Source: Cordylochernes scorpioides
Taxonomy: Eukaryota > Arthropoda > Arachnida > Pseudoscorpiones > Chernetidae
NCBI GenBank assembly: GCA_030710605.1
Contig: CP092881.1
Location: forward strand, 71,043,118-71,107,117
Direction: 5' to 3'
Length of the DNA stretch: 64,000 nt
Within the stretch, counting starts at the first letter, position 1. Each line of letters starts with the position of its first letter. Both the position numbers and the translations under genes were made by a program. The notes under the pieces were generated by a model that was not told the origin of the DNA, made no database searches, and saw only the letters and a list, made by a program, of their open reading frames with translations. Shown piece after piece: positions 1 through 62,846 of this stretch.

Positions 1-747
1 ATATCTGATCATTTTTCTATTTTTATTTTATTTTTCATTAATCTTTATTTAAATATAACTAAAATTGCGTGTGAAGACTTAATAAAAAGATATTAAAATG
101 ATGAGAAAATTGGTAAAATAATTTAAAATTTATTCCAAAATTCATTCTATCGCATTGGAGGATTTGCAGAAAATATTTTAAATACTCAATCATTCTAAAA
201 TATATCTAACAAATATGAATATATGTATATAAACTATTTAAAGACATATTGACCAAAACTTTTAAAATCAAAGCAAAGTTGTAAATTTCTATTTTAGGGC
301 AGTATTATTTAATGGGAATAACTTACTTTGGGCAGTAGATTAGGCTGAGAAATGGCATCGCTCTCCTAGCTAAGGCCATATTTGAACTCTTTCATTTTGT
401 GAGCGTCTATTTATTTATGATGGGGAGGCGAGAAAATGGATTGGTGACTTGGAAGTAAATTCCAGCTAGCGCAGATGTCGGCAAACTTGCGGCTCGCGAG
501 TCACATGGGGCTCTTTGGATGTGAAGGTGAAGCTCTTTATATAGTTCCATACGTAAATATTATTTATGTGAGTACTATTTATTGTTGGCAAGAACACATT
601 GTGTGGCTCTTTAAAAACTTTGAATTTCTGTAAAATGCAATTTTTGACTCTTACGACTCAAAAGTTTACCGACCCTTGTACTAGCGGGATGGATTCTTTC
701 CCACAGTAACCACAGATGGATACATACGCCCCCATACCGAGGGAGGG
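1..747. other. AT-rich sequence, no gene seen
   Basis: No open frame with coding character, no RNA gene and no clear repeat structure could be recognised. The sequence is AT-rich up to about 300 and mixed afterwards. Confidence 0.5.
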
Positions 748-851
748 TAGAACGCTTCACGATTTTGCATGTCATTCTTCCGCAGGGGCCATTGCTAATC
801 TTTTCTATATCGTTCCAATTTTAGTATATGTACGGGAAAACAAGCGTGTAC
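748..851 (-). ncRNA. U6 snRNA-like copy 1, probable pseudogene
   Basis: Read on the minus strand this matches the spliceosomal U6 snRNA over its whole length. Visible landmarks are ACATATACTAAAATTGGAAC, the GATTAGCA...GGCCCCTGCG segment, a TGACATGCA tract and a GTGAAGCGTTC 3' part. U6 base-pairs with U4, U2 and the 5' splice site in the spliceosome. The ACAGAGA box reads ATAGAAA here. There is an extra A in the AGCATGG segment, the 5' stem-loop is altered, and no run of T (Pol III terminator) follows the 3' end. These changes point to a pseudogene. The extra A is shared with the neighbouring copy, so both derive from one altered ancestor. The identification rests on recall of the conserved U6 sequence. 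Confidence 0.85.
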
Positions 852-860
852 AATCTACAA

Positions 861-965
861 TAGAACACTTCACGATTCTACGTGTCATCCCTTGCGCAGG
901 GGCCATTGCTAATATTTTCTGTATCGTTCCAAATTTAGTATATGTACCGCCGAACAAGTGTGTAC
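861..965 (-). ncRNA. U6 snRNA-like copy 2, probable pseudogene
   Basis: This is a second U6-like copy in the same orientation, starting 9 bases from copy 1, so the pair forms a tandem repeat of about 113 bp. It keeps GCGCAAGG-type and TGACACG sequence better than copy 1 and has a CGGCGG 5' loop. Its ACAGAGA box reads ACAGAAA, AGATTAGC reads ATATTAGC, and it carries the same extra A before TGG. No T-run terminator follows, and no proximal promoter was recognised upstream. Probably a tandemly duplicated pseudogene; a divergent functional U6 is less likely. Confidence 0.85.
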
Positions 966-1350: not shown

Positions 1351-1570
1351 GGTCAGGTGTTGATATTAAAAACAAATTAGGCATATCTTGACCACTAACA
1401 TGAGCGTCCAATAGGTGGCAGAGCGCCATCTAGTGGAACAGAAATCAACTGAACGTTGATTTAACCTGTTCCTTGGTATTTGGCCAACCCATTTTCTCAA
1501 TAAATCAAGATAAGTCAACCACGAAGTTGTTTCGGGCTGTTGGCCCTCGTCAGCGTGGGGCAAGCCTCTA
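1351..1570 (-). repeat. Family 1 ribozyme repeat, single arm
   Basis: This is a copy of the family 1 small repeat, also seen at 21960, 26768, 35455, 38341, 52470 and 58014. Shared blocks include a small inner hairpin (GGCAGAGCGCCATCTAGTGG), TTTGGCCAA, and the hammerhead segment at 1517-1560. Unlike the 38 kb copy it shows only one arm of the palindrome. Confidence 0.7.
1517..1560 (-). ncRNA. Hammerhead ribozyme-like motif, family 1 (decayed)
   Basis: On the minus strand: stem I CCACG, core CTGACGA, stem II GGGC-CAACA-GCCC, GAAA, then ACAACT-T and stem I partner CGTGG. Core positions C3-A9, G12-A14, A15.1, U16.1 and H17 can all be assigned. The stem III palindrome ACGCGT of sister copies has decayed to ACAACT, so this copy is probably weak or inactive. 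Confidence 0.7.
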
Positions 1571-4350: not shown

Positions 4351-4783
4351 AAAGACAGGGATGAAAATGTGTTAGACTAGTGAAATATATAGGAAGTTGG
4401 AATCCTCTGATGAGTATAAGTATACATCCCACCCACATGCATATTACTCTAATATCAATAGCAAATTCAAAAGATTAGTCGTCGAGGCGTTGCTCTCTTT
4501 AAAACACAATAGTATTAACCGACACATAGAGATCCCTGACGCATATAAAGCAATATTTCCATAAATAGTGTACCATAGTTGCCCACTGCCAGTTTGTTTT
4601 ATTTCGGAAAGTTTCAACTTTGCAGATTTTATGAATGTATCATAGTCCATAATCCACTTTTGATGTCTCTACTTTGCATACTCAAAACTTATAGATATAT
4701 CTTAAAATTATTTTTTTACTTACATATGTTAATTTTCCTAGTTTTCTGATAAATATATAAGATGCACATTTATTTGTTGGAGT

Positions 4784-13330: not shown

Positions 13331-13534
13331 CCCGCATGTGTTTCTTTTCAACGAAAAATCAATATTTATTCCAAGGAGAAATAACGATTATTTCTAACCT
13401 TGTGGATGAGGTATGAAAGGATGAATTGTGAAGAGTAATGATAAACGGAAAAATAAAAGTGTCCAGGGATGGGAATCGAACCTACAGTGTTCCGCTTACC
13501 GGGCAGATGCCATGTCCACTAGGCTACCCTGGAC
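13331..13534 (-). repeat. tRNA-headed SINE, family S1
   Basis: Minus strand. The 5' head (13461-13534) folds like a tRNA. Ends GTCCAGG and CCTGGAC pair, TAGCCTAGTGG fits a Pol III A box and GGTTCGATTCC a B box. A 5-bp anticodon arm CTGC/GCGG-type can be drawn. The body continues to about 13331 with sequence shared with 46996-47235. It could be mistaken for a tRNA gene, but the shared non-tRNA tail shows it is a SINE. Transcription by Pol III from the internal boxes is expected by analogy. Confidence 0.8.
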
Positions 13535-13845: not shown

Positions 13846-14038
13846 TTCATAACCGGATAACCTATCTATCATTTTTTTAAATTGTCCGGTATAAAGTGAA
13901 TATAAGAGTTTATATAAAGACTTGCGCAAGCCATCATCATATGGTAAGAGTTAAAATCTTGGAGAATTGATTCACTTAGCCATAGCCTTGATTCTATAAT
14001 CAATCAGTAATTATCTGTATCTTATATATTCAATTATA

Positions 14039-14369
14039 CCATAAAAGCAATGGGCGCTTCTCCCGTCAAAACAAACGTCAGAATCTGACGCCATCTATTG
14101 ACCGTCGCCGCAACTAGCGGCCTCGGGTCGGTGACAAAGCCACAAACACCAACTTTGGCAAACTGATAAGCGTCCACCTAGAGACCATGGTTTCGGGCTA
14201 ATGGCCCACGTCAGTCTAGGGCGGACTTTATTCCATGAGATCCACACGGGATCTAATGGAATCCTCACAATCTACCAAAGAGGTGTTTTGCTGGCAATGT
14301 GGCTGGACCAAATCTGGCGTCAGATTCTGACGTTTATTTTGACGGGAGAAGCGCCCATTGCTTTTATGG
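14039..14369. mobile_element. Long-TIR MITE carrying a family 2 ribozyme
   Basis: Ends of 55 bp are inverted repeats with a single mismatch (CCATAAAAGCAATGGGCGCT at the left; its complement ends at 14369). The 331-bp element has no coding frame and contains a hammerhead-like motif on the minus strand. Fragments of relatives lie at 37830-38040 and 51700-52010 (shared GGTCGGTGACAAAGCCAC and ATCTATTGACCGTC-type sequence). Confidence 0.8.
14177..14220 (-). ncRNA. Hammerhead ribozyme-like motif, family 2
   Basis: Stem I CCTAGA pairs exactly with TCTAGG. The core reads CTGACGT (A9 changed to T), stem II is GGGC-CATTA-GCCC, then GAAA, and stem III is the palindrome ACCATGGT followed by cleavage base C (GTC). 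All elements except A9 fit a type I hammerhead. Confidence 0.65.
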
Positions 14370-14789
14370 ATTAATTTCCTCCCGGCAAATTTTCCATCTA
14401 TGTTCAATTATATCACAAGCGATAATAAAGAATTGTAATTCATCGCACTCGGGACATCAATCTAAACAGAAATTCTAAGCCTTTTTACATTACCTATTTA
14501 CATACATGTATTGATGTCAAAAGAGAAATAAGACAAGTACGGAAGAACCATTCAGTAGGCGAATAAAATAGATAATATCTATGATTATGAATACTTTGCT
14601 GAAATATTAATTGCTATTTCCTTTGAGTACATGAGTACTTAATGGTTTTGTTTGCAGTCGTTTCATCTTGAAAGGAAAAACAATAAATCAAGTTATATCA
14701 CATTGATATATAGAATTAATACTTATTGATGCTGATTTCTTTGATATTGTAAGCATTTTGGCACTGGTTTGTAGTCGTGAAACTTGAGA

Positions 14790-17700
14790 TGGAGTAGGTC
14801 GAAGTTTACAGATAGACAGTGAGAGATGTCACAACTCACAGACACTGGGCCATGGAGTAGTTTAAAGTTTGCAGATAGACAGTGAGAGATGTCACAACCC
14901 ACAGACACTGGGCCATGAGGTAGCTTAAAGTTTACAGATAGACAGTGAGAGATGTCTCAACACACACAGACACTGGGGTGGGATGAACCATGGAATAGTT
15001 TAAAGTTTACAGATAGACAGTGAGAGATGTCAGAACACACAGACACTGGGCCATGGAGTAGTTTAAAGTTTACAGATAGACAGTGAGAGATGTCTCAACA
15101 CACACAGACACTGGGATGGGATGAACCATGGAGTAGTTTAAAGTTTACAGATAGACAGTGAGAGATGTCACAACACACAGACACTGGGCCATGAGGTAGT
15201 TTAAAGTTTACAGATAGACAGTGAGAGATGTCACAACTCACAGACACTGGGCCATGGAGTAGTTTAAAGTTTACAGATAGACAGTGAGAGATGTCACAAC
15301 ACACAGACACTGGGCCATGAGGTAGCTTAAAGTTTACAGATAGACAGTGAGAGATGTCACAACTCACAGACACTGGGCCATGAGGTAGCTTAAAGTTTAC
15401 AGATAGACAGTGAGAGATGTCTCAACACACACAGACACTGGGATGGGATGAACCATGGAGTAGTTTAAAGTTTACAGATAGACAGTGAGAGATGTCACAA
15501 CACAGACACTGGGCCATGGAGTAGTTTAAAGTTTACAGATAGACAGTGAGAGATGTCACAACACACAGACACTGGGCCATGGAGTAGTTTAAAGTTTACA
15601 GATAGACAGTGAGAGATGTCACAACACACAGACACTGGGCCATGAGGTAGCTTAAAGTTTGCAGATAGACAGTGAGAGATGTCTCAACACACACAGACAC
15701 TGGGGTAGGATGAACCATGGAGTAGTTTAAAGTTTACAGATAGACAGTGAGAGATGTCACAACACACAGACACTGGGCCATGGAGTAGTTTAAAGTTTAC
15801 AGATAGACAGTGAGAGATGTCTCAACACACACAGACACTGGGATGGGATGAACCATGGAGTAGTTTAAAGTTTACAGATAGACAGTGAGAGATGTCACAA
15901 CACACAGACACTGGGCCATGGAGTAATTTAAAGTTTACAGATAGACAGTGAGAGATGTCACAACACACAGACACTGGACCATGAGGTAGCTTAAAGTTTA
16001 CAGATAGACAGTGAGAGATGTCTCAACACACACAGACACTGGGGTGGGATGAACCATGGAGTAGTTTAAAGTTTACAGATAGACAGTGAGAGATGTCACA
16101 ACACACAGACACTGGGCCATGGAGTAGTTTAAAGTTTACAGATAGACAGTGAGAGATGTCACAACACACAGACACTGGGCCATGAGGTAGCTTAAAGTTT
16201 GCAGATAGACAGTGAGAGATGTCTCAACACACACAGACACTGGGGTGGGATGAACCATGGAGTAGTTTAAAGTTTACAGATAGACAGTGAGAGATGTCAC
16301 AACACACAGACACTGGGCCATGGAGTAGTTTAAAGTTTACAGATAGACAGTGAGAGATGTCTCAACACACACAGACACTGGGATGGGATGAACCATGGAG
16401 TAGTTTAAAGTTTACAGATAGACAGTGAGAGATGTCACAACACACAGACACTGGGCCATGGAGTAGTTTAAAGTTTACAGATAGACAGTGAGAGATGTCT
16501 CAACACACACAGACACTGGGATGGGATGAACCATGGAGTAGTTTAAAGTTTACAGATAGACAGTGAGAGATGTCACAACACACAGACACTGGGCCATGGA
16601 GTAATTTAAAGTTTACAGATAGACAGTGAGAGATGTCACAACACACAGACACTGGACCATGAGGTAGCTTAAAGTTTACAGATAGACAGTGAGAGATGTC
16701 TCAACACACACAGACACTGGGGTGGGATGAACCATGGAGTAGTTTAAAGTTTACAGATAGACAGTGAGAGATGTCACAACACACAGACACTGGGCCATGG
16801 AGTAGTTTAAAGTTTACAGATAGACAGTGAGAGATGTCACAACACACAGACACTGGGCCATGAGGTAGCTTAAAGTTTGCAGATAGACAGTGAGAGATGT
16901 CTCAACACACACAGACACTGGGGTGGGATGAACCATGGAGTAGTTTAAAGTTTACAGATAGACAGTGAGAGATGTCACAACACACAGACACTGGGCCATG
17001 GAGTAGTTTAAAGTTTACAGATAGACAGTGAGAGATGTCACAACACACAGACACTGGGCCATGAGGTAGCTTAAAGTTTGCAGATAGACAGTGAGAGATG
17101 TCTCAACACACACAGACACTGGGGTGGGATGAACCATGGAGTAGTTTAAAGTTTACAGATAGACAGTGAGAGATGTCACAACACACAGACACTGGGCCAT
17201 GGAGTAGTTTAAAGTTTACAGATAGACAGTGAGAGATGTCTCAACACACACAGACACTGGGATGGGATGAACCATGGAGTAGTTTAAAGTTTACAGATAG
17301 ACAGTGAGAGATGTCACAACACACAGACACTGGGCCATGGAGTAATTTAAAGTTTACAGATAGACAGTGAGAGATGTCACAACACACAGACACTGGACCA
17401 TGAGGTAGCTTAAAGTTTACAGATAGACAGTGAGAGATGTCACAACACACAGACACTGGACCATGAGGTAGCTTAAAGTTTACAGATAGACAGTGAGAGA
17501 TGTCTCAACACACACAGACACTGGGATGGGATGAACCATGGAGTAGTTTAAAGTTTACAGATAGACAGTGAGAGATGTCACAACACACAGACACTGGGCC
17601 ATGGAGTAGTTTAAAGTTTACAGATAGACAGTGAGAGATGTCACAACACACAGACACTGGGCCATGAGGTAGCTTAAAGTTTGCAGATAGACAGTGAGAG

Positions 17701-20098
17701 ATGTCTCAACACACACAGACACTGGGGTGGGATGAACCATGGAGTAGTTTAAAGTTTACAGATAGACAGTGAGAGATGTCACAACACACAGACACTGGGC
17801 CATGGAGTAGTTTAAAGTTTACAGATAGACAGTGAGAGATGTCTCAACACACACAGACACTGGGATGGGATGAACCATGGAGTAGTTTAAAGTTTACAGA
17901 TAGACAGTGAGAGATGTCACAACACACAGACACTGGGCCATGGAGTAATTTAAAGTTTACAGATAGACAGTGAGAGATGTCACAACACACAGACACTGGA
18001 CCATGAGGTAGCTTAAAGTTTACAGATAGACAGTGAGAGATGTCACAACACACAGACACTGGACCATGAGGTAGCTTAAAGTTTACAGATAGACAGTGAG
18101 AGATGTCTCAACACACACAGACACTGGGGTGGGATGAACCATGGAGTAGTTTAAAGTTTACAGATAGACAGTGAGAGATGTCACAACACACAGACACTGG
18201 GCCATGGAGTAGTTTAAAGTTTACAGATAGACAGTGAGAGATGTCACAACACACAGACACTGGGCCATGAGGTAGCTTAAAGTTTGCAGATAGACAGTGA
18301 GAGATGTCTCAACACACACAGACACTGGGGTGGGATGAACCATGGAGTAGTTTAAAGTTTACAGATAGACAGTGAGAGATGTCACAACACACAGACACTG
18401 GGCCATGGAGTAGTTTAAAGTTTACAGATAGACAGTGAGAGATGTCACAACACACAGACACTGGGCCATGAGGTAGCTTAAAGTTTGCAGATAGACAGTG
18501 AGAGATGTCTCAACACACACAGACACTGGGGTGGGATGAACCATGGAGTAGTTTAAAGTTTACAGATAGACAGTGAGAGATGTCACAACACACAGACACT
18601 GGGCCATGGAGTAGTTTAAAGTTTACAGATAGACAGTGAGAGATGTCTCAACACACACAGACACTGGGATGGGATGAACCATGGAGTAGTTTAAAGTTTA
18701 CAGATAGACAGTGAGAGATGTCACAACACACAGACACTGGGCCATGGAGTAATTTAAAGTTTACAGATAGACAGTGAGAGATGTCACAACACACAGACAC
18801 TGGACCATGAGGTAGCTTAAAGTTTACAGATAGACAGTGAGAGATGTCACAACACACAGACACTGGACCATGAGGTAGCTTAAAGTTTACAGATAGACAG
18901 TGAGAGATGTCTCAACACACACAGACACTGGGGTGGGATGAACCATGGAGTAGTTTAAAGTTTACAGATAGACAGTGAGAGATGTCACAACACACAGACA
19001 CTGGGCCATGGAGTAGTTTAAAGTTTACAGATAGACAGTGAGAGATGTCACAACACACAGACACTGGGCCATGGAGTAGTTTAAAGTTTACAGATAGACA
19101 GTGAGAGATGTCACAACACACAGACACTGGGCCATGAGGTAGCTTAAAGTTTGCAGATAGACAGTGAGAGATGTCTCAACACACACAGACACTGGGGTGG
19201 GATGAACCATGGAGTAGTTTAAAGTTTACAGATAGACAGTGAGAGATGTCACAACACACAGACACTGGGCCATGGAGTAGTTTAAAGTTTACAGATAGAC
19301 AGTGAGAGATGTCACAACACACAGACACTGGGCCATGAGGTAGCTTAAATTTTGCAGATAGACAGTGAGAGATGTCTCAACACACACAGACACTGGGGTG
19401 GGATGAACCATGGAGTAGTTTAAAGTTTACAGATAGACAGTGAGAGATGTCACAACACACAGACACTGGGCCATGGAGTAGTTTAAAGTTTACAGATAGA
19501 CAGTGAGAGATGTCTCAACACACACAGACACTGGGATGGGATGAACCATGGAGTAGTTTAAAGTTTACAGATAGACAGTGAGAGATGTCACAACACACAG
19601 ACACTGGGCCATGGAGTAATTTAAAGTTTACAGATAGACAGTGAGAGATGTCACAACACACAGACACTGGACCATGAGGTAGCTTAAAGTTTACAGATAG
19701 ACAGTGAGAGATGTCTCAACACACACAGACACTGGGGTGGGATGAACCATGGAGTAGTTTAAAGTTTACAGATAGACAGTGAGAGATGTCACAACACACA
19801 GACACTGGGCCATGGAGTAGTTTAAAGTTTACAGATAGACAGTGAGAGATGTCTCAACACACACAGACACTGGGATGGGATGAACCATGGAGTAGTTTAA
19901 AGTTTACAGATAGACAGTGAGAGATGTCACAACACACAGACACTGGGACGGGATGAACCATGGAGTAGTTGTAAAGTTTACAGATAGACAGTGAGAGATG
20001 TCTCAACACACACAGACACTGGGCCATGGAGTAGTTTAAAGTTTACAGATAGACAGTGAGAGATGTCACAACACACAGACACTGGAACGGGATGAAGA
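14790..20098. repeat. Satellite array, 63- and 75-bp units in higher-order repeats
   Basis: A tandem array of about 5.3 kb. The common core is GTTTACAGATAGACAGTGAG. Type A units are 63 bp and end CACTGGGCCATGG or CCATGAGG. Type B units are 75 bp and carry TCTCAACACACACAG and GGGATGAACC. A-A-B triplets give a 201-bp period, and A-B plus A-A-A-B plus A-A-B gives a 603-bp super-period, clear between about 17.1 and 18.9 kb. Both unit lengths are multiples of three, so minus-strand frames stay open for tens of residues. They end at TGA in B units and are not genes. Edge units are the most diverged. Confidence 0.95.
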
Positions 20099-21959: not shown

Positions 21960-22147
21960 ATATAAATAAAAGTTGAGGTTTTGGTATTAAAATAAAAAAA
22001 AGGCATTTCCTGACCACGTACACATGAGCTTTTAGATGGTAGAGAGCCATCTAGTGGAACAGAACTCAACTAATAATTGATTTAACCTGTTTCCTGATAT
22101 TTGGCCAAACCATTTTGTCGATAAATCAAAAGCCAACCACGGCTCTC
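21960..22147 (-). repeat. Family 1 repeat truncated at the ribozyme
   Basis: It shares the outer arm with other family 1 copies (GGCATTTCCTGACCAC, GGTAGAGAGCCATCTAGTGG, ATATTTGGCCAA). It breaks off immediately after the stem I strand AACCACG, so the ribozyme core is missing. Confidence 0.6.
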
Positions 22148-26767: not shown

Positions 26768-26965
26768 GAAAAAGGCATCTACTTATCGTGCAACTGAAAG
26801 TTACTGATAGCTTGGGCCATCTATCGGAATAAATATCAACTATTCTCGTTGATTTTTAATTATTCCAGAATTGGCCAAATACCCATTCTTTATTAATCAA
26901 GAAAAGCTAACCACGGACGCGTTTCGGGCTGTTGGCCCTCATCAGCGTGGTGCAAGCTGTACCTC
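26768..26965 (-). repeat. Family 1 ribozyme repeat
   Basis: A single-arm copy starting at GGCATCTACTTATCGTGCAA and including GCCATCTATCGGAATAAATA, ATTGGCCAAATACCC and the ribozyme at 26910-26951. A GA microsatellite (26968-26986) follows. Confidence 0.7.
26910..26951 (-). ncRNA. Hammerhead ribozyme, family 1, intact core
   Basis: Minus strand: stem I ACCACG, CTGATGA, stem II GGGC-CAACA-GCCC, GAA, palindromic stem III ACGCGT, cleavage base C (GTC), stem I CGTGGT. All conserved type I hammerhead positions are present. Cleavage would fall between the GTC and CGTGGT. Stem I extends beyond an internal loop to AGCT/AGCT, which could support the loop contacts natural hammerheads use. A six-base palindromic stem III is too short to close as a good hairpin, so dimer formation is likely. 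Sequence match only; no activity shown. Confidence 0.85.
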
Positions 26966-27847: not shown

Positions 27848-30800
27848 TTAACCATGAGGTGAGGAGTCCGAGTCACTCAGGTGATCGGAATCCTCCGCGC
27901 GGACGCGTGGCCTAAGTCTATCAGAGGCCTTTAGGAACTCCAGGCAGGCTCGCCAAGTGCTTCTGTTGAAAATAAAGTATTTGAGTGACCGCGGAGTGTA
28001 CCCTAATTCTTCTGCACAGGTGGAAAGAAGGGGGAATCTAAGGGCATCAAGGCTGCTGCACTCAAGCACGATGTGAGACAGAGTTTCTTCCCTGTCAGTG
28101 TCGCAGTAAGGGCAGGAAGGATCGTCAATGACGCCTATCCTGTGGGCGAAACCGTCCGTCCACGTGTGTCCCGATAGCAGGCCAACCACAATGTGCTCGC
28201 TAGGGACGATGTACGCATACCTTTTGTCTAAAAGACTCATTGGAGTAAGGCCAAAGCGGGTGTGGATAGAAGGAGCTAGAGAGAGGAATCTGCTTCCCCA
28301 TGCTTCACGCGCCCGGCCGTAAGATTGCCGATTTTACAAACGACAAAGGAGCGAGTTTGTAACAGCTTGGGTCAGCAGACTCAGCACCCCGCTTTGCGAG
28401 TGTGTCCGCAATGTCATTACCCATGTTCCCACTGTGGCCCTTGATCCATTGTATGGTGCATCTGTTCCCATTGCGATTCAATCGCGAAATCAGTAGCAGA
28501 GCTCTGTCGATAAGGTAATTACCAGTCTTAGAGTTCAGAACTGACTTCACGACTGAGAGGTTGTCCAGGAAGAATCCTAAGGTTAGATGATTTGGTGAAG
28601 TGGTTGCGTTTTCAAGTGCCTTAACCAATCCAAGGGCTTCCGCCTGAAAGACAGAACAATGAGGGGACAGAACATGAGATTCACGTATTTCAAGTGCACA
28701 ATCGAGACAAGAGAACCTGTACACGCCGGCGCCAACTCCATCTCTGGTTTTGGAACCATCTGTATAGTATGCCACGTGGAAGAAAAGAGCAGGAATATTA
28801 CTGGGAGCGGAGTAATAGGGGGGGTAGGGGAGAGGGTGTGGAAAGGGAGGAGGCTCGAGTGGAATTTCAGCGTCAACCAATCCATACTTTTTAAGGTATA
28901 GCTCAGTTTTACCCGAGATTTCCAGATCGAGAGGAAGGACTCTAGAGAGGGAGATAAGAGCAGCGTTGCTGGTTGATCTGAAAGCTCTACAAGCTCTCAC
29001 TAGGAAAGGCCTTTGAGCACTCAGTAGAACATTCAAGGAGCGTTGAGAAAGATTAGGAAACCAAACCGCCGAGGCATAGGCAATGGCCGGAACAACCTCT
29101 TGCAGATACAGAGTTCTCAAGGCGCGGTAACCAAAACCAAAGTTGAGATTAGCGGCTGCGGTCAAACGCGGCAACATGCCGCGGACCTTGGCGCAGACTT
29201 CAACTACGTGCTGGTAGAAAGATAGACGTTGATCAAATCTCACTCCCAGCACCTTAATTGAGTCGCACCATTGGATTGGCCGTCCGTGGATAACCAGATC
29301 CCGGCGCGGTTCAGGCAGTCTCCCGTGTGGTCTGAGGAGAACCATAGTCTGGCACTTCCCCACACTGAGTTCCAGTTTATGCAAACTGCACCACCTAGCG
29401 ATCATATCTATGGTGTGTTGGGCCGCGGGAAGTTGACTAGGTCGGCGTCCCGAGACCACCACGACCAGATCATCCGCGTAGGCTTGCGGGAAAACATTAT
29501 TTCTGTAGTCCAGCGTGAGGAGTTCGTCAAAGACAATATTCCAAAGGAATGGGCCGAGAACTGAACCCTGGGGACATCCTTTGAAAATTCGTCTCGGCAC
29601 AGTACAACCATTCATAGATAGTCTCACAACACGGTTACATAGAAACGAGTTTATCAGGTGATAATAGTTTCTGGGACAAACGCTTTTGTGCAACGCTCTC
29701 AAGATACTGGAGTGGAGCACGTTGTCAAAAGCGCCTTTAACATCAAAAGAAAGAAGAAGACATGATTTCCTATTTTTAATCGTCCGGGTTATAGTATATT
29801 TTAGATTTAAGAGTGCGGCTGTAGTAGATCTACAAGGCTTAAATCCGAACTGGTTTGGATGCGCTTTACACATCCTATCGGCCATCCACGACAGCCTAGC
29901 AAGAATTAGACGCTCAAGGATCTTGCCCAAACCAGGCAGCATCGTGATTGGACGGTGTGATGCGAGAAAGTCCTCCCCACTTCGCTTGGGGACGAGAACG
30001 ACGTCCCCCAGCTTCCATGTAGATGGAAAGTGGCCAGTGGTTAAACACTTGTTGAAAATACTTAGAAAAAAACGTCCGAAAATGTTTAACTAGTTTTACG
30101 ATAAGAAGAGGTGGCATGCCATCACTACCAGGAGAAGAAGATAAGTTCACCTTATCCGCTGTCAACAACAACTCGTTATCTGTAAACAAAGGGTCGTTAT
30201 CAGATGACGATGAGATGACTTTGCTTAAATCTTCGTGTTCTAACATGGTATCGGGCGGGACGCGGCCGAAATAGTAATCTAATACGTGATTTAATGTGTC
30301 CCGCGGACCTTCAGTGAAGCCGCTACCAACTGGGGAGCTGAGAGGGGTTTGCGCTTAAAATTTCCCTTGATGAAACTGTAGATTCCACCCCAAGGGCTGA
30401 TTTCGCAACGGGAGCAGGCTGCCCTCCATGCTTCTTTCTTAGCCAGTCTCCTCGCACGGCGATATCTTGCCTTCAGTCTTTTGTAAAAGACCTCCAGCAT
30501 ACCCTTAACGACACCGCGTGCCTTTATAAAGGCCCGCTGTGCCTTTTGAGTGGCCCTTTTGAGAGGATTCAAATCAGATTTCCATCAAGAGATGGACTTG
30601 AGGTATTTATCACTTCTGGGACGGGATGGAATGGTGTTTAGGCATGTGTGAAAAATCTCTACGCCGAGTAAATTAATTACATCGTCGAGGGAGGATGAGT
30701 CACGCACGTTTTCTAAAAAAAGATTAATATTTTCTATTTTCTGGCTGAAATGTTCAAAAACTCTATCCCAGTCAGCGCGACCAAAGCTGAAGTATATTTC

Positions 30801-34136: not shown

Positions 34137-35178
34137 TTATTCAAAATGTCTTCCCTTATTTTTGACACAGGATCTCAAACGTTCGGGCCACTGATCTATG
34201 GCGGCACGCACCTTTTCTAAGGGTATTTCTTTCATTGCTCTCACCAATGCTGATTTAAAGTGATCCAAATTACGATATCTTTTAGAGCACACCTTCTCCT
34301 CTAAATATGCCCACAAAATGTAATCAAGGGAGTTTAAATCAGGGCTTCCAGAGAGCCATTCATTGGCCTTTATGAACTCCGGAACATTCGTCTCCAACCA
34401 TTGTTGAGTAGACTTAGCTTTGTGAGCAGGAGCTGAATCTTGTTGAAATATCTAATGTTCTCCATCAAACATTTTTGTATTCAGAGGCTTTACTATTTGT
34501 TCCAAAATATCTTTTTGATAGTTTTTAGCTGTAGTTTTTACCCCTTTGGCATAGAAGTGGAGATCTGTTACACCTTGGTAGCTAACTCCCCACCAAACCA
34601 TGACAGAAGAAGGATGGTGCCGTTTTTCAAGTCTTCTGACTTTTAAAGAAGCTTCTAGAGAGCTACGAGCATATATCCTATCATTCTGACAATGAATGTT
34701 TTCCTCGACAGTGAAAATTTTCTCGTCTGTGAAAAGGATTCTCTCATTCCACTGACCATCATGCCGAGCCAACAACATCTTTGATCTAACCCTTCTAATA
34801 TCTCTAAGAGCAGGGGTTATCAAATGACCTGTGCGTCGTTTGAAAGCTCTCAGTCCAAGGTCTTCGTTGATTATCCTAGAAACTGTTCTTGGAGATAAAT
34901 TCATCTGCTTTGCTAAGATCTTTTGTTTGCGACGTGGGTTTCGACGAATTCTTTCGCGAATGGCTTTTATAGCTGCTTGCGTTCGTTGTACGCGCGGTCG
35001 ACCAGATCTTTCAAGGTCATTAATAGTGCCAGTCTTGTTGAACCTTTCAATGGTTCGATAAACAAATTGGCGCGTAATATTCGAATTTTGTAAAAGTTTA
35101 AAAATAGATGAAGGACTTTGGCCTACCTTATGTAAAGGCTATTACAGCTATACGGTTTTCTTTAACACCCCAATCCAT
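34137..35178 (-). pseudogene. maT-like DD37D transposase
   Basis: The start ATG is at 35176-35178 (MDWGVKEN). The N-terminal helix-turn-helix region has RTIERFNKTGT, the RSGRPRV linker and a second helix region with LSPRTVSRIIN. Catalytic segments: LFTDEKIFT (first D), QQDSAPAH (second D) and SPDLNSLDYILW (third D). Counting from QQD to SLD gives 37 residues between, hence DD37D. Breaks: a frameshift near 35120 and an in-frame TAG at about 34444-34446, just before the QQD block. The enzyme would cut and paste the element at TA sites. Confidence 0.85.
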
Positions 35179-35454: not shown

Positions 35455-36019
35455 GGCACCACGACGACCAAAAATAATTGGTCATTAAGGCATCCTGAAA
35501 AATCATGAAACGGGTAGTTAAGGCCAGAATTGAGTGAGAGCGCTACAAAATGTGAAAAAATAGTACAAATGTAATATTGGACTGGGATAAGGTGCATAAA
35601 TTAAGAAAAAGGGATCTACTTATCGTGCAACTGAAAGTTGCTGAAGGCTTGCGCCATCTATCGGAATAAATATCAACTATTCTCGTTGATTATCAAGCAA
35701 TTCTGGCCTTAACTACCCGTTTCATGATTTTTCAGGATGCCTTAATGACTAATTATTTTAGGTCGTCGAGGTACAGCTTGCACCACGCTGATGAGGGCCA
35801 ACAGCCCGAAACGCGTCCGTGGTTAGCTTTTCTTGATTAATCAAGAATGGGTATCTGGCCAATTCTGGAATAATTAAAAATCAACGAGAATAGTTGATAT
35901 TTATTCCGATAGATGGCGCAAGCCATCAGCAACTTTCAGTTGCACGATAAGTAGATGCCTTTTTCTTAATTTATGCACCTTATCCCAGTACAATATTACA
36001 TTTGTACTATTTTTTCACA
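35455..36019. repeat. Family 1 complex palindrome with ribozyme
   Basis: Outer arms 35551-35690 and about 35880-36019 are inverted repeats (TGTGAAAAAATAGTACAAAT at the left, its complement ending at 36019). A second inverted pair, 35455-35540 and 35690-35770 (CTTAACTACCCGTTTCATGA), is interleaved. The ribozyme lies at 35782-35823, between the arms. No protein is encoded. Confidence 0.8.
35782..35823 (+). ncRNA. Hammerhead ribozyme, family 1, intact core
   Basis: ACCACG, CTGATGA (35788-35794), GGGC-CAACA-GCCC, GAA, ACGCGT, C, CGTGGT. It is identical in all core positions to the 26910-26951 copy on the opposite strand. The GTC cleavage triplet ends at 35817. The best copy for a structure or activity check. 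Confidence 0.85.
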
Positions 36020-37835: not shown

Positions 37836-38040
37836 GGAAAATATATGCTAAAACTAAGAGCCATCTATCGAATGTCTTTGCAAACTAGCGGATTCAGTTC
37901 AGTGACAATATCACGACATCAGCTTTGGCCCCACTCAGTTTGCCAAACCTGGTGTCGTGGCTTTGTCACCGACCCGATTCCGCTTGTTTGCTAGACAGTC
38001 AATAGATGGAACTTTTGCGTCTATTTTTCTAGGAGAAGGA
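37836..38040. repeat. Family 2 MITE remnant
   Basis: Shares GTCGTGGCTTTGTCACCGAC, AGTCAATAGATGG and AGGAGAAGG with the 14 kb and 51.7 kb copies, but the ribozyme segment is missing. Confidence 0.5.
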
Positions 38041-38478
38041 ATTTCTATTTTCAAGGATTTAGATTGACGTTGCCTGGTTGGAGATGGCTTGAACTGTTAA
38101 TTTGGAAGAATGAAAGAGGAAATCAGGGATAATATTCCAAAGCCTGAGTGGTAATGTATTTATCAACAACTACAAAAAAACATTTTTAAGAACACTCATT
38201 CTTTACAGGATTCTTCCAGATGTGTAAACAGAATTTATATTTATATTATTTGTATATTTATAAATGAAAAAACAATAGAAAAAAAAAGATAAGTGGGTCA
38301 GGTGTTGATATTAAAAATAAAAAGTAAAAAAAATTAAAAAGGCATCTCCTGACCACGAGCACATGTGCTTTTTAGATGGCAGAGCGCCATCTAGTGGAGC
38401 AAAAATAAACTAAACGTTTATTTAGCTTGCTCCGTGATATTTGGCCAACCCAATTTCTTGATTCATCAAGAAAAGCCA

Positions 38479-38520
38479 TCCACGAACGCGTGTCGCGCTG
38501 TTGGCGCTCGTCAGCGTGGA
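38479..38520 (-). ncRNA. Hammerhead-like motif, family 1, core mutated
   Basis: TCCACG, CTGACGA, stem II GCGC-CAACA-GCGC, then GACA where GAAA is required, ACGCGT, T, CGTGGA. The stem II change keeps all pairs relative to GGGC/GCCC. The GACA change should abolish activity. Confidence 0.7.
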
Positions 38521-38739
38521 GAAGGCTGTAACCACTGCGACCAAAAAAGAATTTTGGTCCCAATGGCTTCTTGAGAAATCAGAAAATGGGTATTTAAGGC
38601 CAAATTAGCGTAAAGACACTTAACACATGAAAAAACAATAGAAAAAAAAAACTAAATTGGCCTTAAATACCCATTTTCTGATTTCTCAAGAAGCCATTGG
38701 GACCAAAATTATTTTTTGGTCGCAGTGGTTACAGCCTTC

Positions 38740-38781
38740 TCCACGCTGACGAGCGCCAACAGCGCAAAACGCGTTCGTGGA
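38740..38781 (+). ncRNA. Hammerhead-like motif, family 1, core mutated
   Basis: TCCACG, CTGACGA, GCGC-CAACA-GCGC, then AAAA in place of GAAA (G12 lost), ACGCGT, T, CGTGGA. It carries the same compensated stem II as the other arm but an independent core mutation. Confidence 0.7.
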
Positions 38782-38920
38782 TGGCTTTTCTTGATTAATC
38801 AAGAAATTGGATTGGCCAAATATCACGGAGCAAGCTAAATAAACGTTTAGTTTATTTTTGCTTCACTAGATGGCGCTCTGCCATCTGAAAAGCACATGTG
38901 CTCGTAGTCAGGAGATGCCT

Positions 38921-39029
38921 TTTTTTATTTTTAATATTTATAAATGTATGAAATTCTGCTGTCCTCAAAGTTCATGTCCAGAGTTAATCTAAAATACACA
39001 TTCAAAGAGTATTGCATCAGTATCACTTA
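38921..39029. other. Spacer
   Basis: No feature seen. Confidence 0.35.
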
Positions 39030-46995: not shown

Positions 46996-47235
46996 GTCCA
47001 GGGTAGCCTAAAAGACATGGCATCTTCTTGGTAAGCGGAACACTGTGGGTTCGATTCCCATTCTTCGACACTTTTATTTTTTCGTTTATCATTACTCTTC
47101 ACAATTCATTCTTTTATACTTCATCTCTAAGGTTAGAAATAATCGTTATTTCTCCTCGAAATAAAAATATTCGATTTTTCGTTCAAAAGAAAGACATGCG
47201 GGATAATTTTCAAATGTCGTTCTAAAAACAAAGTT
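46996..47235 (+). repeat. tRNA-headed SINE, family S1
   Basis: The head 46996-47069 keeps GTCCAGGGTAGCC, GTGGGTTCGATTCCCAT (B box and T arm) and GGTAAGCGGAACAC, but the A box and 3' acceptor strand are mutated. The body through TTCTCC..AAAT and GCGGGATAATTTTCAAATGT matches 13331-13534 in reverse. Confidence 0.75.
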
Positions 47236-49385: not shown

Positions 49386-49925
49386 TCTCTTTAAGCCTTC
49401 AATAAACACTTCGACTCAACTTGCCGCTCCAAAGGCACATGAAAGCTCATTGTAGAACCGAGTTTCTGGTATTTTTCTATGACTTTGAAGTCAAAATCAG
49501 AAATTTATCTTCTTGATGGCTGATTGATGATTGATTCTTTTTCGGCCAAGCCCTTGTCTTCTGACGATGTTGTCGGTTATACCTATTATTTCCATAACTG
49601 GAATAATGCATTTCGGTTAACATTGATAAATTTGGCGACTTCACTGTCTGGGATTGGTCTGTTTCTATTCTTCCAATATTTATTTATCGTATTGAATGAG
49701 ATAAACTATTATATAAAGCCATTTTATTTCCAATTTCTTACAAAGTGTATGATGTATTAAATATGTTAATATATTTTTTAAAAAATTTTAATTTTTAAAA
49801 GCCGTTTGTTCTCTCAAATCTGAACCCAGGTGTAAGTTCGAAGTATCATTGGAAGTAATAAGACAAACAACAATAAAACAAAATATTTTTATCGTTGAAT
49901 TTGAGATAAATATATATGACAAAAA
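49386..49925. other. Spacer, no gene seen
   Basis: The open frame 49524-49760 has no recognisable domain; part of it overlaps a hairpin-family fragment. Confidence 0.35.
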
Positions 49926-50130
49926 ATAAGGCATCTCCTTATCGTGCAACTAAAAGTTGCTGATGTGTTGCGCCATCTATCGGAATAAATATAAACTATT
50001 CTCGTTGATTTTTAATTATTCTGATAGATGACGCAAGTAATAGGCAACTCTCAGTTGCACGATAAGGAGAGGCCTTTTCTTTTTAATAATGTATGCACCT
50101 TATTCCAGTACAATATCACATGTGTATTAT
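49926..50130. repeat. Family 1 palindrome, ribozyme deleted
   Basis: The arms GGCATCTCCTTATCGTGCAA and TTGCACGATAAGGAGAGGCC, with CGCCATCTATCGGAATAAAT between, match the 35.5 kb copy. The centre is deleted, leaving a short hairpin. Confidence 0.65.
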
Positions 50131-50448
50131 TTTTCTAAATCTATTTGGTTCAGAATAGAGATAACATATGTATTTAAAATATTATGCATTGTTTATCTTG
50201 CATAATAATGCATATACACTCAGACAAAAATAGCGCATACTCTAGAGTCCTACTTCTATATATAGCACCAATTCCAAGCAAATAAAGAAATAGGGAATGG
50301 AATATTCCGCCCATAAACAACCGTCCACGTTCTGTCCACGTTATTCTTCATTGACCTAAGTCCAGAGTTGATCCTAACTACATCCCTGGGGTCATTTCTC
50401 ACTCGCTGCTAGTTCTTCTTTACCTTCTGCAACCTCACATCTCCATAA
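50131..50448. other. Spacer
   Basis: No feature seen. Confidence 0.35.
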
Positions 50449-50741: not shown

Positions 50742-51302
50742 GAATATTTGAACTTCATTTTTTTACGACATTTCCTTTCTAGTGGTTTATTTTCCAGAAC
50801 TATTGACGTTGGCCGAAGCAGTGAACATAGTTTCCAACACATTAGGTTATAAAGAAAGCCAGTCGAATAACGGGCGAATAGAGGAACACATTTGACCGTA
50901 AACACTTATTTTTGACAATTTAAAAAATTTCTTGATTCTTCTAATTAATTGTTACAAAGAGAAAAATTAAGAGAGAAAAAAAGTATAATATATAATAAAG
51001 GAGTAAATGTGTACAAATTTCTTTATCAAGGAAGGCTTTTCCACTTTGAGAGAGTCCTTGGAAATGTGTACAGTTTCACTTTGTGTTATATCGCAATGTT
51101 AACTATACCTAATCATACCTTCGTTTTGGAAGATTAGCATAATTGTTACTGAAAATAAATTTATCGAATATTTGTGTACATAAGATACTAAGAAATGAGT
51201 CCTAAATACTAATGTTTTTTTTTTAAATATTATAACTTTCAAATTAAACCAACTTTCTCTATTGTGAAAAATAATACAAAAGTGAATCAATACTTGGATC
51301 AG
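50742..51302. other. Spacer, no gene seen
   Basis: No supported feature. Confidence 0.35.
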
Positions 51303-51475
51303 GTGGAAAAATTAAGAAAAAAGGCATTTCCTGATCGTGTAACTGGAAGTTGCTGATGGCTTGCGCCATATATCGGAATAATTTCGGAAAAATATTTATT
51401 TCGATAGATGGGGGAAGCCATCAGCAACTTTCAGTTGTACGATCAGTAAATGCCTTTTTTCTTAATTTCTCTATT
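51303..51475. repeat. Family 1 short palindrome, ribozyme deleted
   Basis: The arms GGCATTTCCTGATCGTGTAA and TTGTACGATCAGTAAATGCC, with GTTGCTGATGGCTTGCGCCA and its complement, form an almost continuous hairpin. Confidence 0.65.
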
Positions 51476-51509
51476 GTGTCTCTTCACTGCGATGAAAACC
51501 TATTGGAAT

Positions 51510-51699: not shown

Positions 51700-52010
51700 A
51701 TGCTATTCCGAAATAATTAAAGACAAGGCCGGTTTCCTACTATCTTATTTGGCAAAATTATTTCGGAATTCTTCTATCAATAGATGGCAGATAATGCTTA
51801 TTATAACCCCAATGTATACTGACACAATTTCTATAAGATACGTCCATCGGGAGACCATGGTTTCAAGCTAATGGCCCTCGTCAGCCCCTTTTAAATTTGC
51901 CAAAGCTGGTGCTGTGGCTTTGTCACCGACCCTAGGCCTCTAGCTTGCGGGGAAGGTCGACAGATAGCGTGCATTTTTGACACTTATTTTGACGGAAAAG
52001 GCGTTTTATA
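51700..52010. repeat. Family 2 MITE copy with ribozyme
   Basis: Contains ATCAATAGATGGCAG, TACGTCCATCGGGAGACCAT, GTGGCTTTGTCACCGACCCT and TATTTTGACGGAAAAGGCG, matching the 14 kb MITE. The terminal repeats are partly decayed. Confidence 0.6.
51848..51889 (-). ncRNA. Hammerhead ribozyme-like motif, family 2
   Basis: Stem I GGGG/TCCC, core CTGACGA (intact), stem II GGGC-CATTA-GCTT, GAAA, palindromic stem III ACCATGGT, cleavage base C. The core is canonical; stem II is weakened by changes on one side. Confidence 0.7.
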
Positions 52011-52469: not shown

Positions 52470-53030
52470 GATAGCTCACATGAACATTCTAAAGAGCAGA
52501 GCGTCATCTAGCGAAACAAAAATAAACTAAATGTTTATTTAGGCTCGACTAAAATAAACTCTTCGAGTTAAAATAGAAAAATAAAAAGGAGATTGAAGAG
52601 GAGTATTTTGTGGGAATTTTAATAGTAAGCTTTCGGACGTCCTTCTACAGGCATTTTTAAGATGAAATTATGTAAAAAAACCTGTAGAAGGACGTCCGAA
52701 AGCTTGCTAATAAAAAAATCGCAAAAGAAACTCCTATTCAATCTCCGTTTTATTTTTCTATTTATTCCATAAAATGATCACATAGCCTCTGGAATCAAAA
52801 CATTTTTGGTCGCAGTGGTACAGCCTGTACCATTCTGATGAGGGCTAACAGCGGGAAACGCGTTCGTGGTTGGCTTTTCTTGATTTATCAAGAAATTGTG
52901 TTGGCCAAATATCAGCATATCAACATTTAGTTGATTTCTGTTTCACCAGATGGCACTCTGCCATTTGCACATGTGATTGTGGTCAGGATATGCCTTCTTT
53001 GATTTTAATACCAACACCTGACCTTTTTAA
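52470..53030. repeat. Family 1 repeat interrupted by a family 3 hairpin
   Basis: The left piece 52480-52556 (GAGCAGAGCGTCATCTAGCG, AAACTAAATGTTTATTTAGG) and the right piece 52780-53030 (GGTCGCAGTGGTACAGCCTG, ATATCAGC, GATGGCACTCTGCCATTTGC, CCAACACCTGACC) are the two family 1 arms. 52558-52775 is a family 3 hairpin (AAAATAGAAAAATAAA..GGAGATTGAAGAGGAGT against its complement) with inverted motifs at 52626-52655 (minus) and 52678-52706 (plus), both CTGTAGA, GGACGTCC, GAAA, AGCT. Confidence 0.7.
52829..52870 (+). ncRNA. Hammerhead ribozyme-like motif, family 1
   Basis: ACCATT, CTGATGA, GGGC-TAACA-GCGG, GAA, ACGCGT, T, CGTGGT. The core and stem III palindrome are canonical. Stem I lost its two innermost pairs (TT for CG) and stem II has one mismatch. 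Confidence 0.7.
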
Positions 53031-53099
53031 ATTATATTTTCCCATATATAAGTATTCTGTGAATATAGAGCAATCCATAATATATATATTAAAAGAATA

Positions 53100-58013: not shown

Positions 58014-58330
58014 AAATCAACAAAGACATATCTTGACCACGAGCGCATGTGTAATTTAGGTGGCAAAGTGCCATCTAGTGGAACAAAAATCAAATAAACG
58101 TTGATTTAGCTTGTTCCCTGATATTTGACAACCTATTTTCTTAATAAATCAAGAAAAGTCAACCACGAACGCGTTTCGGGCTGTTGGTCCTCATCAGCGT
58201 GGTGCAGACTGTAACTCTACGACCAAAATTTAGTCCCAAGGCTTCCTGAGAAATCAAGAAATGAGTATTTAAGGCCAAGTTTTCGTAAATACGCTTTTCA
58301 TGTGAAAATATTTTATTGTTTTTTCACAAT
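58014..58330 (-). repeat. Family 1 ribozyme repeat
   Basis: AAGACATATCTTGACCACGA, GGCAAAGTGCCATCTAGTGG, GTTGATTTAGCTTGTTCCCT, then the ribozyme, then ACGACCAAAATTTAGTCCCA and GGTATTTAAGGCCAAG-like sequence as in the 38 kb copy. Confidence 0.7.
58162..58203 (-). ncRNA. Hammerhead ribozyme, family 1
   Basis: ACCACG, CTGATGA, stem II GGAC-CAACA-GCCC (one mismatch), GAA, palindromic ACGCGT, T, CGTGGT. The core is canonical with GTT as cleavage triplet. Confidence 0.8.
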
Positions 58331-58598
58331 TCAATCTTATGTAAGACAGGTATTACCGAATGCTAAGTGCCCAATGAATATTCAGGCGGCTATACTAGGG
58401 ATATATCAATCCATACTGTGCCAATCAATAGTGCTCTGATCCCGACAGTCATTACAGGGATGCGCTAACTGGCGCCGACAGCTCGGCCAACTGGGCTGAA
58501 TTTCAAAGAGGCTCCACCGCCAATTGGAGCGTCTAATTGGTGAGCGAGCTCCGTTAATTGGGAGGTAGATGCTGCACTACTCTCGTAACTATACCTCT
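58331..58598. other. Unique block with clustered ATTGG/TAATTG words
   Basis: Contains AACTGGCGCC, CCAACTGGGC, CCGCCAATTGGAGCG, TCTAATTGGTGAG and GTTAATTGGGAG within about 100 bp, GC-richer than the surroundings and without repeat relatives. It may be host regulatory DNA; this is inference. Confidence 0.3.
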
Positions 58599-59064
58599 AC
58601 TCTAAAATCTACATATGTGCGTATTTACTCTGGTATCTACATATGTACGTATGTACTCTGGTATCTACATATGTACTTATTCACTCTGGTATCTACATAT
58701 GTACGTATGTACTCTGGTATCTACATATGTACGTATTTACTCTGGTATCTACATATGTACTTATTCACTCTGGTATCTACATATGTACATATTTACTCTG
58801 GTATCTACATATGTACGTATGTACTCTGGTATCTACATATGTATGTATTTACTCTGGTATCTACATATGTACTTATTCACTCTGGTATCTACATATGTAC
58901 TCATTTACTCTGGTATCTACATATGTACTCATTTACTCTGGTATCTACATATGTACTTATTTACTCTGGTATCTACATATGTACGTATGTACTCTGGTAT
59001 CTACATATGTACTTATTTACTCTGGTATCTACATATGTACTTATTTACTCTGGTATCTACATAT
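58599..59064. repeat. 28-bp tandem array
   Basis: About 16 units of CTCTGGTATCTACATATGTA plus 8 variable bases (CGTATGTA, CTTATTTA or CTTATTCA). 28 is not a multiple of three, so all three plus-strand frames translate as overlapping 28-residue repeats; these are not genes. The array is cut at 59064 by the gypsy 3' LTR. Confidence 0.95.
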
Positions 59065-59400
59065 TGTTGCACCAGGTTGCGGCTTGGCAGACTCTTCAGC
59101 CTTGATTCTCTCCTGTGCTGGGTCTTGCATCTTACCAGAGCGTGTTTCAACCATCCTACAAATTTATAAAAGGGAATAATGAGATAAGTCTACTTTATGT
59201 AGCCACCAGAATCATTTATTTATTTTCTCACATCAAAGAGAGCAGTGAAGTCACAGTGTACCTAAATACAAATGATGATAATCTAAAAATAATCTGTTTT
59301 AAATAAATATCATAGAATATAAAAATAAATAAATATATAATTTAAATTTCAAATATATTAAAAATAATATAATAAATACGCCATTAATCATGATGTAACA
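59065..59400 (-). repeat. 3' LTR
   Basis: 336 bp, from TGTTACATCATG (59400) to GGTGCAACA (59065), with inverted termini TGTT/AACA. A TATA-like TTTTATAAA lies at about 59163-59171. The last 80 bases equal 63921-64000 and include an ATG that opens the gag frame in the 5' copy. Confidence 0.9.
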
Positions 59401-59413
59401 CTTCCCCCTCTCC
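59401..59413 (-). other. Polypurine tract
   Basis: GGAGAGGGGGAAG on the minus strand directly before the LTR TGTTACA; it primes plus-strand DNA synthesis in LTR elements. Confidence 0.85.
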
Positions 59414-62400: not shown

Positions 62401-62846
62401 TGCACTTTTTATTTTCTTCTGTTGATATTTGATTACGTCACGATTTTCTGTCAAGTCATATTTGATTATTTCACGCTGACAATCAATTTTTGCGTTCATT
62501 TTCTTAAGAAAATCACGTCCAAGTATAAATATTCGCAAATGTGTTCTCATTATCACAAATTGATGTGTAATTGTTTTGTCATCAAATTTTATATTTAAAA
62601 TAATATTTCCTACGATATCTAATTCTTTGCCATCGGGTCCGGAGCACATTTTATCAGGATTTATTATTTCAAGACCTGTGTTAAGAGCTGTACTAAGGTC
62701 GACCACTGAAAGATCGGCGCCTGTATCAATCAAAGCTTCGCAGATACCGATTCTATCCACGTTAATGTTCATTTTATATTTGGGGTCTAACTTTTTAATT
62801 CCATTTATGGTCGACTTGCTTTGATTGACGGACTCAGGCGCGATGT

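Follow-up and report, generated by a model that had tools for sequence, protein, structure and literature searches.

A hammerhead-bearing, gene-less repeat in the pseudoscorpion Cordylochernes scorpioides: a retrozyme-type element probably moved by Penelope-like enzymes

Non-coding repeats of 150-450 bp that carry type I hammerhead ribozymes are described from animal genomes as non-LTR retrozymes (PMC7229834). Hammerheads are also published from Penelope-like elements (PLEs) (PMC7761336, PMC11167929), and PLEs have been named "likely candidates" for the movers of retrozymes on account of their shared type I hammerheads and their presence in the same genomes (PMC7761336). As described for a rotifer, PLEs carry inverted pseudo-LTRs (pLTRs), most often head-to-head, with an optional 31-bp "tail" on one of them; target duplications of 8-10 bp accompany several copies and none accompany others, one family has mostly direct pLTRs, and solo pLTRs occur (PMC3846280). 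The same account reports pLTRs that carried unrelated DNA in trans, and it suggests self-priming at palindromes as a mechanism (PMC3846280). The PLE enzyme PAc acts on both strands of the target, cutting and extending each, with a preference for AT-rich DNA; in the experiments described, mutation of its hammerhead left insertion in vitro unaffected (PMC11167929). In amphibians, hammerheads with a "palindromic tetraloop" are described as acting as dimers (PMC7229834).

The hammerhead motif and a second ribozyme family

In the window, i.e. the whole 64-kb stretch of C. scorpioides DNA analysed here, a type I hammerhead (HHR) is present in seven dispersed copies, all of them at the positions given in a preliminary description of this DNA:

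35773..35830, plus strand: intact type I HHR (35782), subfamily A, predicted cleavage between 35817 and 35818
26903..26960, minus strand: intact type I HHR (26951), 58 of 58 nt identical to 35773-35830
38731..38788, plus strand: HHR 38740, subfamily B, AAAA in place of the core GAAA, stems I and II with compensatory changes
38472..38529, minus strand: HHR 38520, GACA in place of the core GAAA, stems I and II with the compensatory changes of 38740
52820..52877, plus strand: HHR 52829, core bases kept, stems I and II broken, stem I ACCAUU
58155..58212, minus strand: HHR 58203, core kept, stem II with an A.C mismatch, distal stem I with a compensatory change
1511..1568, minus strand: HHR 1559, core kept, stem III palindrome broken, mismatch at the end of stem I (CCCACG)

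The motif places CUGANGA, GAAA and UH between three stems, is open at stem I and has a minimal stem III. In the copies 35782 (plus) and 26951 (minus), the two flawless ones of the window, proximal stem I has 6 bp, stem II has 4 bp and the loop CAACA, and the cleavage site is GUC. Their stem I extends via an internal loop to a second 4-bp helix, which brings the motif to about 58 nt (35773-35830) instead of the 42 nt first assigned to it. The "stem III" of this family (family 1) consists of the palindrome ACGCGU only, with 2 bp in the monomer. All core bases are intact in five of the seven copies (35782, 26951, 58203, 1559 and 52829). The preliminary description had claimed at least three, given there as 26910, 35782 and 58162; all three hold, the last (58203) with the A.C pair in stem II. 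It had also taken stem I ACCACG/CGTGGT and the GAAA box as common to all seven. The former fails in 38740 and 38520, where stem I is a compensatory UCCACG/CGUGGA, as well as in 1559 (CCCACG) and 52829 (ACCAUU); the latter stands in five copies and fails in 38740 (AAAA) and 38520 (GACA).

A strict scan of the window, which required CUGANGA, GAAA and UH together with 3 or more bp in stem II and 5 or more contiguous bp in stem I, retrieves 35782, 26951 and 1559 on their respective strands (plus, minus, minus), with no match in 100 first-order Markov simulations. In Rfam, Hammerhead_HH9 is the best-scoring member of the hammerhead clan here (E 7.5e-5 if 201 bases alone are searched). It matches four of the seven copies at 24.3-26.5 bits, every match lying under the gathering score of 52, which is a curated cut-off and no test of function. 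The idea that the copies score no better than shuffled sequence of the same repeats is countered by the simulations and E-values, used in place of shuffled repeats. A loose pattern without stems was rejected as evidence: it yields 44 matches in the window against a shuffle mean of 19.3, and 2 of 100 shuffles reach 44. Single-strand folding of the lone 58-nt motif gave no z-score below -2 against shuffles in the seven copies (-1.49 for 35782, range -1.97 to +0.74), and viral contigs scanned with the HHR core pattern gave 0 matches.

Among the seven window copies (six distinct), whose alignment was not fitted to a covariance model, two-sided changes affect 4 of 16 stem pairs (six cells), spread over stem II and the two parts of stem I, compared to 0 or 1 in slid controls; shuffles reach four pairs in 31 of 500 cases and six cells in 3 of 500. 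A larger set of 52 HHRs (23 distinct), taken from the window and 40 genome stretches, displays two-sided changes in 7 of 16 pairs and 26 cells, in an alignment fitted to the covariance model and therefore biased toward structure. Shuffles average 8.4 cells and in 0 of 500 cases come up to 26, and slid controls have at most 5 cells; seven pairs are reached by 35 of 500 shuffles. On these figures the stems are judged to covary. Between subfamilies A and B the HHR retains a mean identity of 84%, as compared to 60-62% in the flanks. Selection on the HHR, assessed by the mismatch rate outside the search pattern, is not significant (2.3% vs 7.1%, p 0.12), and in the 20 loci L009-L028, picked by an exact core match, conservation within the 29-mer is no independent evidence.

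A second HHR family was found with a covariance model built from family 1 only:

14167..14229, minus strand: second HHR family, 33 bits, E 7e-8
51853..51885, minus strand: second HHR family, weak match, 12.8 bits, E 0.23, 86% identity over 44 nt to the 14 kb copy

The second family differs from family 1 in stem I, which is CCUAGA/UCUAGG followed by GUCC/GGAC, and has the palindromic stem III ACCAUGGU; in the 14 kb copy the last A of CUGANGA is a U. A copy of this family in genome stretch L020 has a full HHR core. The weak match at 51853-51885 is outscored by a core-less model match at 34257-34295 (15.2 bits). Outside the ribozyme, the searches made returned no match between the second family and family 1. 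To note, a segment around GGGTCGGTGACAAAGCCAC (51888-52003, with relatives at 14055-14170 and 37939-37991) shares 79-83% identity between second-family copies.

In both families the part from GAAA to the cleavage site is palindromic, and in family 1 it is too short to form a stable stem within a monomer. With the intact sequence, a double hammerhead is predicted at -42.9 kcal/mol, where the dimer optimum is -43.4 and two monomers reach -37.6. In the case of 58203, the value for the double hammerhead (-27.7 kcal/mol) lies far above the dimer optimum (-38.5).

The host repeat and its spread through the genome

The HHR is carried by a gene-less unit of about 338-363 nt that occurs as singles, tandem arrays and inverted dimers, and in two subfamilies, A and B, with the HHR in common. 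Unit A is 340 nt long, as defined by a tail-to-head junction in the left arm of the dimer 35458-36019, and unit B 363 nt, as defined by an exact 24-nt terminal redundancy (38264-38287 = 38627-38650). Both have a GC content of 39%, and their longest stop-to-stop frames, read over three tandem copies, are 50 and 68 amino-acids long. Folded as circles, they reach -95.4 and -117.3 kcal/mol; the corresponding values from 30 mononucleotide shuffles are -67.0 (sd 4.9) and -71.1 (sd 5.1). A non-coding unit with a single type I HHR and a GC content below 50% falls within the size range of non-LTR retrozymes (about 150-450 nt). The inverted arrangements of the window, none with an assigned strand, and an HHR-less copy are as follows:

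35458..36019: subfamily A dimer, inverted and head-to-head; left arm 35458-35691 on the minus strand, right arm 35698-36019 on the plus strand and holding the hammerhead
38254..38946: inverted head-to-head dimer, subfamily B, with two HHRs; 13-nt direct repeat ATATTTATAAATG at the flanks, included
51254..51478: head-to-head dimer, subfamily A, without HHR; exact 13-nt repeat TTTCTCTATTGTG at the flanks, included
49922..50134: head-to-head dimer, subfamily A, without HHR; target duplication not found
52477..53041: head-to-head dimer, subfamily B, its arms separated by another inverted repeat; target duplication not found
14028..14376: head-to-head dimer, second family; 10-nt word TTCAATTATA at 14029-14038 and 14403-14412
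51841..52003: head-to-head dimer, second family
37861..38009: inverted pair without HHR, related to the second family
21988..22141, minus strand: copy without HHR, its first base being the first base after the predicted cleavage site

In the subfamily B dimer 38254-38946, the last 24 nt of the left arm repeat its own start, with a period of 363. The second copy of TTCAATTATA lies 26 nt beyond the right arm of 14028-14376. The inverted repeat lodged between the arms of 52477-53041 is a separate one (52571-52763), with 83% arm-to-arm identity. Within the 64-kb window, no tandem unit array is found.

The copies lie among other repeated sequences. Transposase-like pieces with helix-turn-helix Pfam matches, read here as Tc1/mariner-like, are located at 34137-35138 (minus), directly beside the 35782 repeat. 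Elsewhere in the window, a tandem pair of U6-like snRNA copies occupies 741-965 (minus; Rfam, 76 and 73 bits), and two related tRNA-like matches are found at 13461-13533 (minus, 47.9 bits) and, more weakly, at 46997-47069 (plus, 32.8 bits). Long coding-like tandem arrays of DISHCLSVNFKLPHGPVSVCC repeats, perhaps satellite DNA, run along the minus strand at about 15000-19200, and a further tandem repeat at 58569-59179 (plus) is open in three frames. A retroelement at 59384-62874 (minus), with reverse transcriptase, RNase H and integrase domains spread across several frames, is Ty3/Gypsy-like by our reading. A reverse transcriptase at 28305-30086 (minus) shares 98% identity over 66% of its length with LAZ67_5001032 of C. 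scorpioides. Rfam matches resembling microRNAs (MIR8562, MIR5048, mir-753 and others) score far under gathering; those that could be placed fall on inverted arms or hairpins and were set aside as by-products of inverted repeats.

In the C. scorpioides genome (24 contigs, 2.62 Gb), the 29-nt HHR core with at most two mismatches has 28,617 matches, and the reversed control 0. Spacings among the 100 matches listed reveal tandem arrays with a period of 338-350, and the genome stretches L016, L026, L027 and L028 hold unit-to-unit arrays without an ORF; the dimer-to-multimer tandem arrangement of retrozymes is thus found in the genome. In 20 arbitrary 10-kb stretches at round coordinates, 13 contain at least one piece of the element (23 pieces in total), and these 200 kb hold five HHRs that pass E 0.01, all diverged. 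Twenty-seven of the 52 HHRs are identical across 58 nt, in a set that includes 20 loci chosen by core match. The loci L001-L008 are the same places as L009-L016 and were excluded from every count. Such a number of near-identical copies suggests that the spread was probably recent.

Because covariation, a model match in an independent family and genome-wide copies concur, a genuine type I hammerhead inside a non-coding, non-autonomous element is well supported from the sequences, and this central claim of the preliminary description stands. The ribozyme might nevertheless be a relic, its RNA no longer cutting, or its cutting playing no part in the spread. The broken core of two of the seven window copies, the divergence of all five HHRs in the arbitrary stretches and the dispensability of the PAc ribozyme for insertion in vitro, as described in PMC11167929, would fit this reading, which is nonetheless distinctly unlikely: the recent spread indicated by the 28,617 copies within two mismatches of an intact core, and by the 27 identical HHRs, argues against it.

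Insertion pattern and candidate movers

The ends of the mapped copies bear on the way the unit was inserted. Where neighbouring pieces on opposite strands belong to one subfamily, all 25 of 25 pairs are head-to-head and none is tail-to-tail; three of the pairs are near-copies of each other. Four tail-to-tail neighbours are all mixed A/B pairs and were excluded from the dimer count. In L022, L023 and L024, B tails lie 13-40 nt from A tails, tail to tail, the pairs of L022 and L023 involving the same B stretch. The 3' ends fall into discrete classes. In subfamily A, 24 of 44 are located at unit positions 266-277 and 17 at 310-328, with 3 elsewhere, the two classes being about 50 nt apart. In subfamily B, 10 of 21 are at 312-322, 5 at positions 20-24 of the next unit and 6 elsewhere. 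The 5' ends are scattered. Among 14 A dimers, ten combine a short and a long 3' end, two have both short, none both long and two are of another kind; short-plus-long combinations thus make up 10 of the 12 classifiable A dimers (binomial p 0.015 vs independent ends). The near-copies L010 and L011 of L009 were left out of this last test and retained in the 25 neighbour pairs, the end counts and the 49 insertions below. Pieces with less than 80% identity do not enter the end counts; the second family was left out of the end, dimer, insertion and short/long counts.

A direct repeat of at least 10 nt spans the insertion ends in 16 of 49 cases, mostly AT-rich, compared to 0.5% of random place pairs, a null drawn from the window and not from the flanks of the genome loci. 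The 16 include several AT-rich simple-sequence repeats and two repeats located 14-15 nt away from the mapped end; 13 are 10-14 nt long, and three, within AT repeats, 18-20 nt. The other 33 insertions have no flanking repeat of at least 10 nt, and in the window no target duplication of that length was found at 35782, 26951, 58203, 22141, 1559, 49922-50134 or 52829. By these ends and flanks, the element inserts like a retroelement, and the architecture of PLE insertions recurs in it: copies are inverted and mostly head-to-head, one arm may bear a tail, and target duplications, where present, are short.

The many copies with inverted arms also recall a DNA transposon, of MITE or fold-back type, that acquired an HHR and whose arms would be terminal inverted repeats. 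This is very improbable: the arms are unequal at their start and end, singles and tandem arrays exist, and those flanking repeats that reach 10 nt differ in length, between 10 and 20 nt. The MITE form of the reading was rejected on account of the variable termini.

That a hammerhead-bearing SINE was moved by a LINE is also improbable, if somewhat less so. The Schistosoma Sm-alpha repeat is such a SINE. The copies here are short, dispersed and non-coding, with target duplications often of 12-13 nt, and the window holds an R1-type LINE. The window copies examined have no poly(A) tail, though subfamily B ends T-rich; discrete 3'-end classes and tandem arrays also speak against a SINE, and the arms of the head-to-head dimers overlap, unlike the two parts produced by LINE twin priming, which do not.

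PLEs themselves are present in this genome. The window contains one remnant:

4379..4561, plus strand: Penelope-like C-terminal remnant, 46% identity to a PLE elsewhere in the genome, E 1.1e-11

It lies away from the window copies, with no hammerhead unit beside it. A PLE in L029/L049 combines a reverse transcriptase (PF00078, E 1.9e-10) with a GIY-YIG match (E 8.9e-5) in a head-to-head inverted arrangement, and L032 holds a reverse transcriptase piece of a PLE. L029 has no HHR model match; in L029/L049 loose pattern matches fall within coding sequence, with no real match to the unit, and no HHR unit was found on any of these coding pieces (L029/L049, L032 and the window remnant). The unit itself carries no ORF with reverse transcriptase and GIY-YIG and is not classed as an autonomous PLE.

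The copies could still be the solo pLTRs of an ordinary autonomous PLE with the HHR in its pLTR, in which case there would be no independent gene-less element. Inverted pLTR pairs, solo pLTRs, one-arm tails and short duplications are all described for PLEs (PMC3846280), and PLEs do occur in this genome. Two features point instead to RNA made of units alone: the ORF-less unit arrays of L016, L026, L027 and L028, and the tail-to-head junctions within 35458-35691 and at 38264-38287 = 38627-38650. Moreover, the 312 kb examined, a small sample, hold no PLE that bears the unit as pLTR. Solo pLTRs are therefore a rather unlikely, if serious, explanation.

In the best explanation, which has good likelihood, the repeats are copies of a gene-less retroelement of retrozyme type that is non-autonomous, bears a single type I HHR in each unit and probably depends on a PLE enzyme for its movement. 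Units or unit multimers would be transcribed and the transcripts cut by the hammerheads, probably best as pairs, since stem III is a short palindrome with which two copies may form six base pairs. A PLE would then supply the reverse transcriptase and endonuclease that copy linear or circularised RNA into AT-rich DNA, starting at preferred sites near the 3' end of the unit; priming would often occur from both cut target strands, with a head-to-head pair of copies as the result. Of these steps, we infer cleavage in the animal, the circular RNA and the PLE enzyme as mover. For dimer formation, two-strand priming is favoured over self-priming at palindromes, because the arms often start and end at different positions of the unit, unlike the product of simple fold-back copying.

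A further proposal, that the hammerhead retrozymes of this animal are integrated by a Penelope-type enzyme priming on both cut strands, with an HHR-processed unit, multimer or circular RNA as template, is put forward tentatively, its chances being real but somewhat short of even. The genomic footprint of such priming would be head-to-head dimers with one short and one long end, together with copies starting at the cleavage site. Two of 65 mapped 5' ends (22141 and L021:1221) are exactly at the predicted cleavage site, 22141 having been added by hand to this count since its 79% identity is below the cut-off. The start of 22141 (minus) is the first post-cleavage base in five of seven pairwise alignments, one of the others being shifted by one base and one stopping short of the site; the right arm in L021 starts at the same base. 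With a mean of 0.19 expected if ends were uniform, the chance of two such ends is estimated at about 1-2%, which makes them a hint of cleaved RNA, not a proof. The HHR-less copy 22141 was absent from the preliminary description, which likewise mentions neither the inverted head-to-head arrangement and the two classes of 3' ends nor the tandem arrays elsewhere in the genome, the second HHR family and the coding remnants of PLEs.

Comparison with known systems

The term "undescribed" first applied to this element was too strong as to its kind, both non-LTR retrozymes and PLE hammerheads having been published (PMC7229834, PMC7761336, PMC11167929). With animal non-LTR retrozymes, as presented in PMC7229834, it shares one type I HHR per unit (units of about 170-400 nt there, 338-363 nt here), a GC content below 50%, the lack of any described LTR, PBS or PPT, tandem arrays and a strongly self-paired RNA. 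It departs from them by its many singles, head-to-head dimers and preferred 3' ends, and by two unrelated HHR families in one host. No chelicerate is named as host in the account of animal retrozymes drawn on here (PMC7229834). Searches for literature combining hammerhead ribozymes and pseudoscorpions, a weak check of novelty, found none; as far as they went, an arachnid host with two independent ribozyme families is thus added.

The head-to-head inverted units, the one-arm "tail" and the short target duplications resemble the pLTRs of PLEs (PMC3846280), and the AT-rich sites, the type I HHR, located in PLEs in the pLTRs, and the weak or absent stem III are further likenesses (PMC11167929, PMC7761336). 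Unlike PLEs, the unit has no reverse transcriptase or GIY-YIG ORF. Its hammerhead combines a stem I internal loop and second helix with a stem III palindrome, whereas the PLE variants described lack helix III or loop contacts. Dimeric action and a link to PLEs would bring it close to the small dimeric PLE-associated variants of Lunse et al. 2017, as cited in PMC7761336. Plant LTR retrozymes are likewise non-autonomous and hammerhead-bearing, with a circular RNA model (PMC4918200), but are described with type III HHRs, LTRs and about 700 bp between the HHRs (PMC7229834).

The mover of animal hammerhead retrozymes is not settled, and this genome makes the question testable, because it offers 28,617 near-identical cores in copies that stand singly, in tandem or inverted, with preferred 3' ends and with target duplications. 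If true, integration by PLEs would tie animal retrozymes to the PLE machinery, as proposed in PMC7761336. Since the unit holds no ORF, the element is, by its defining features, a retrozyme-like non-autonomous element and not a PLE: its kind is known, the variant is new.
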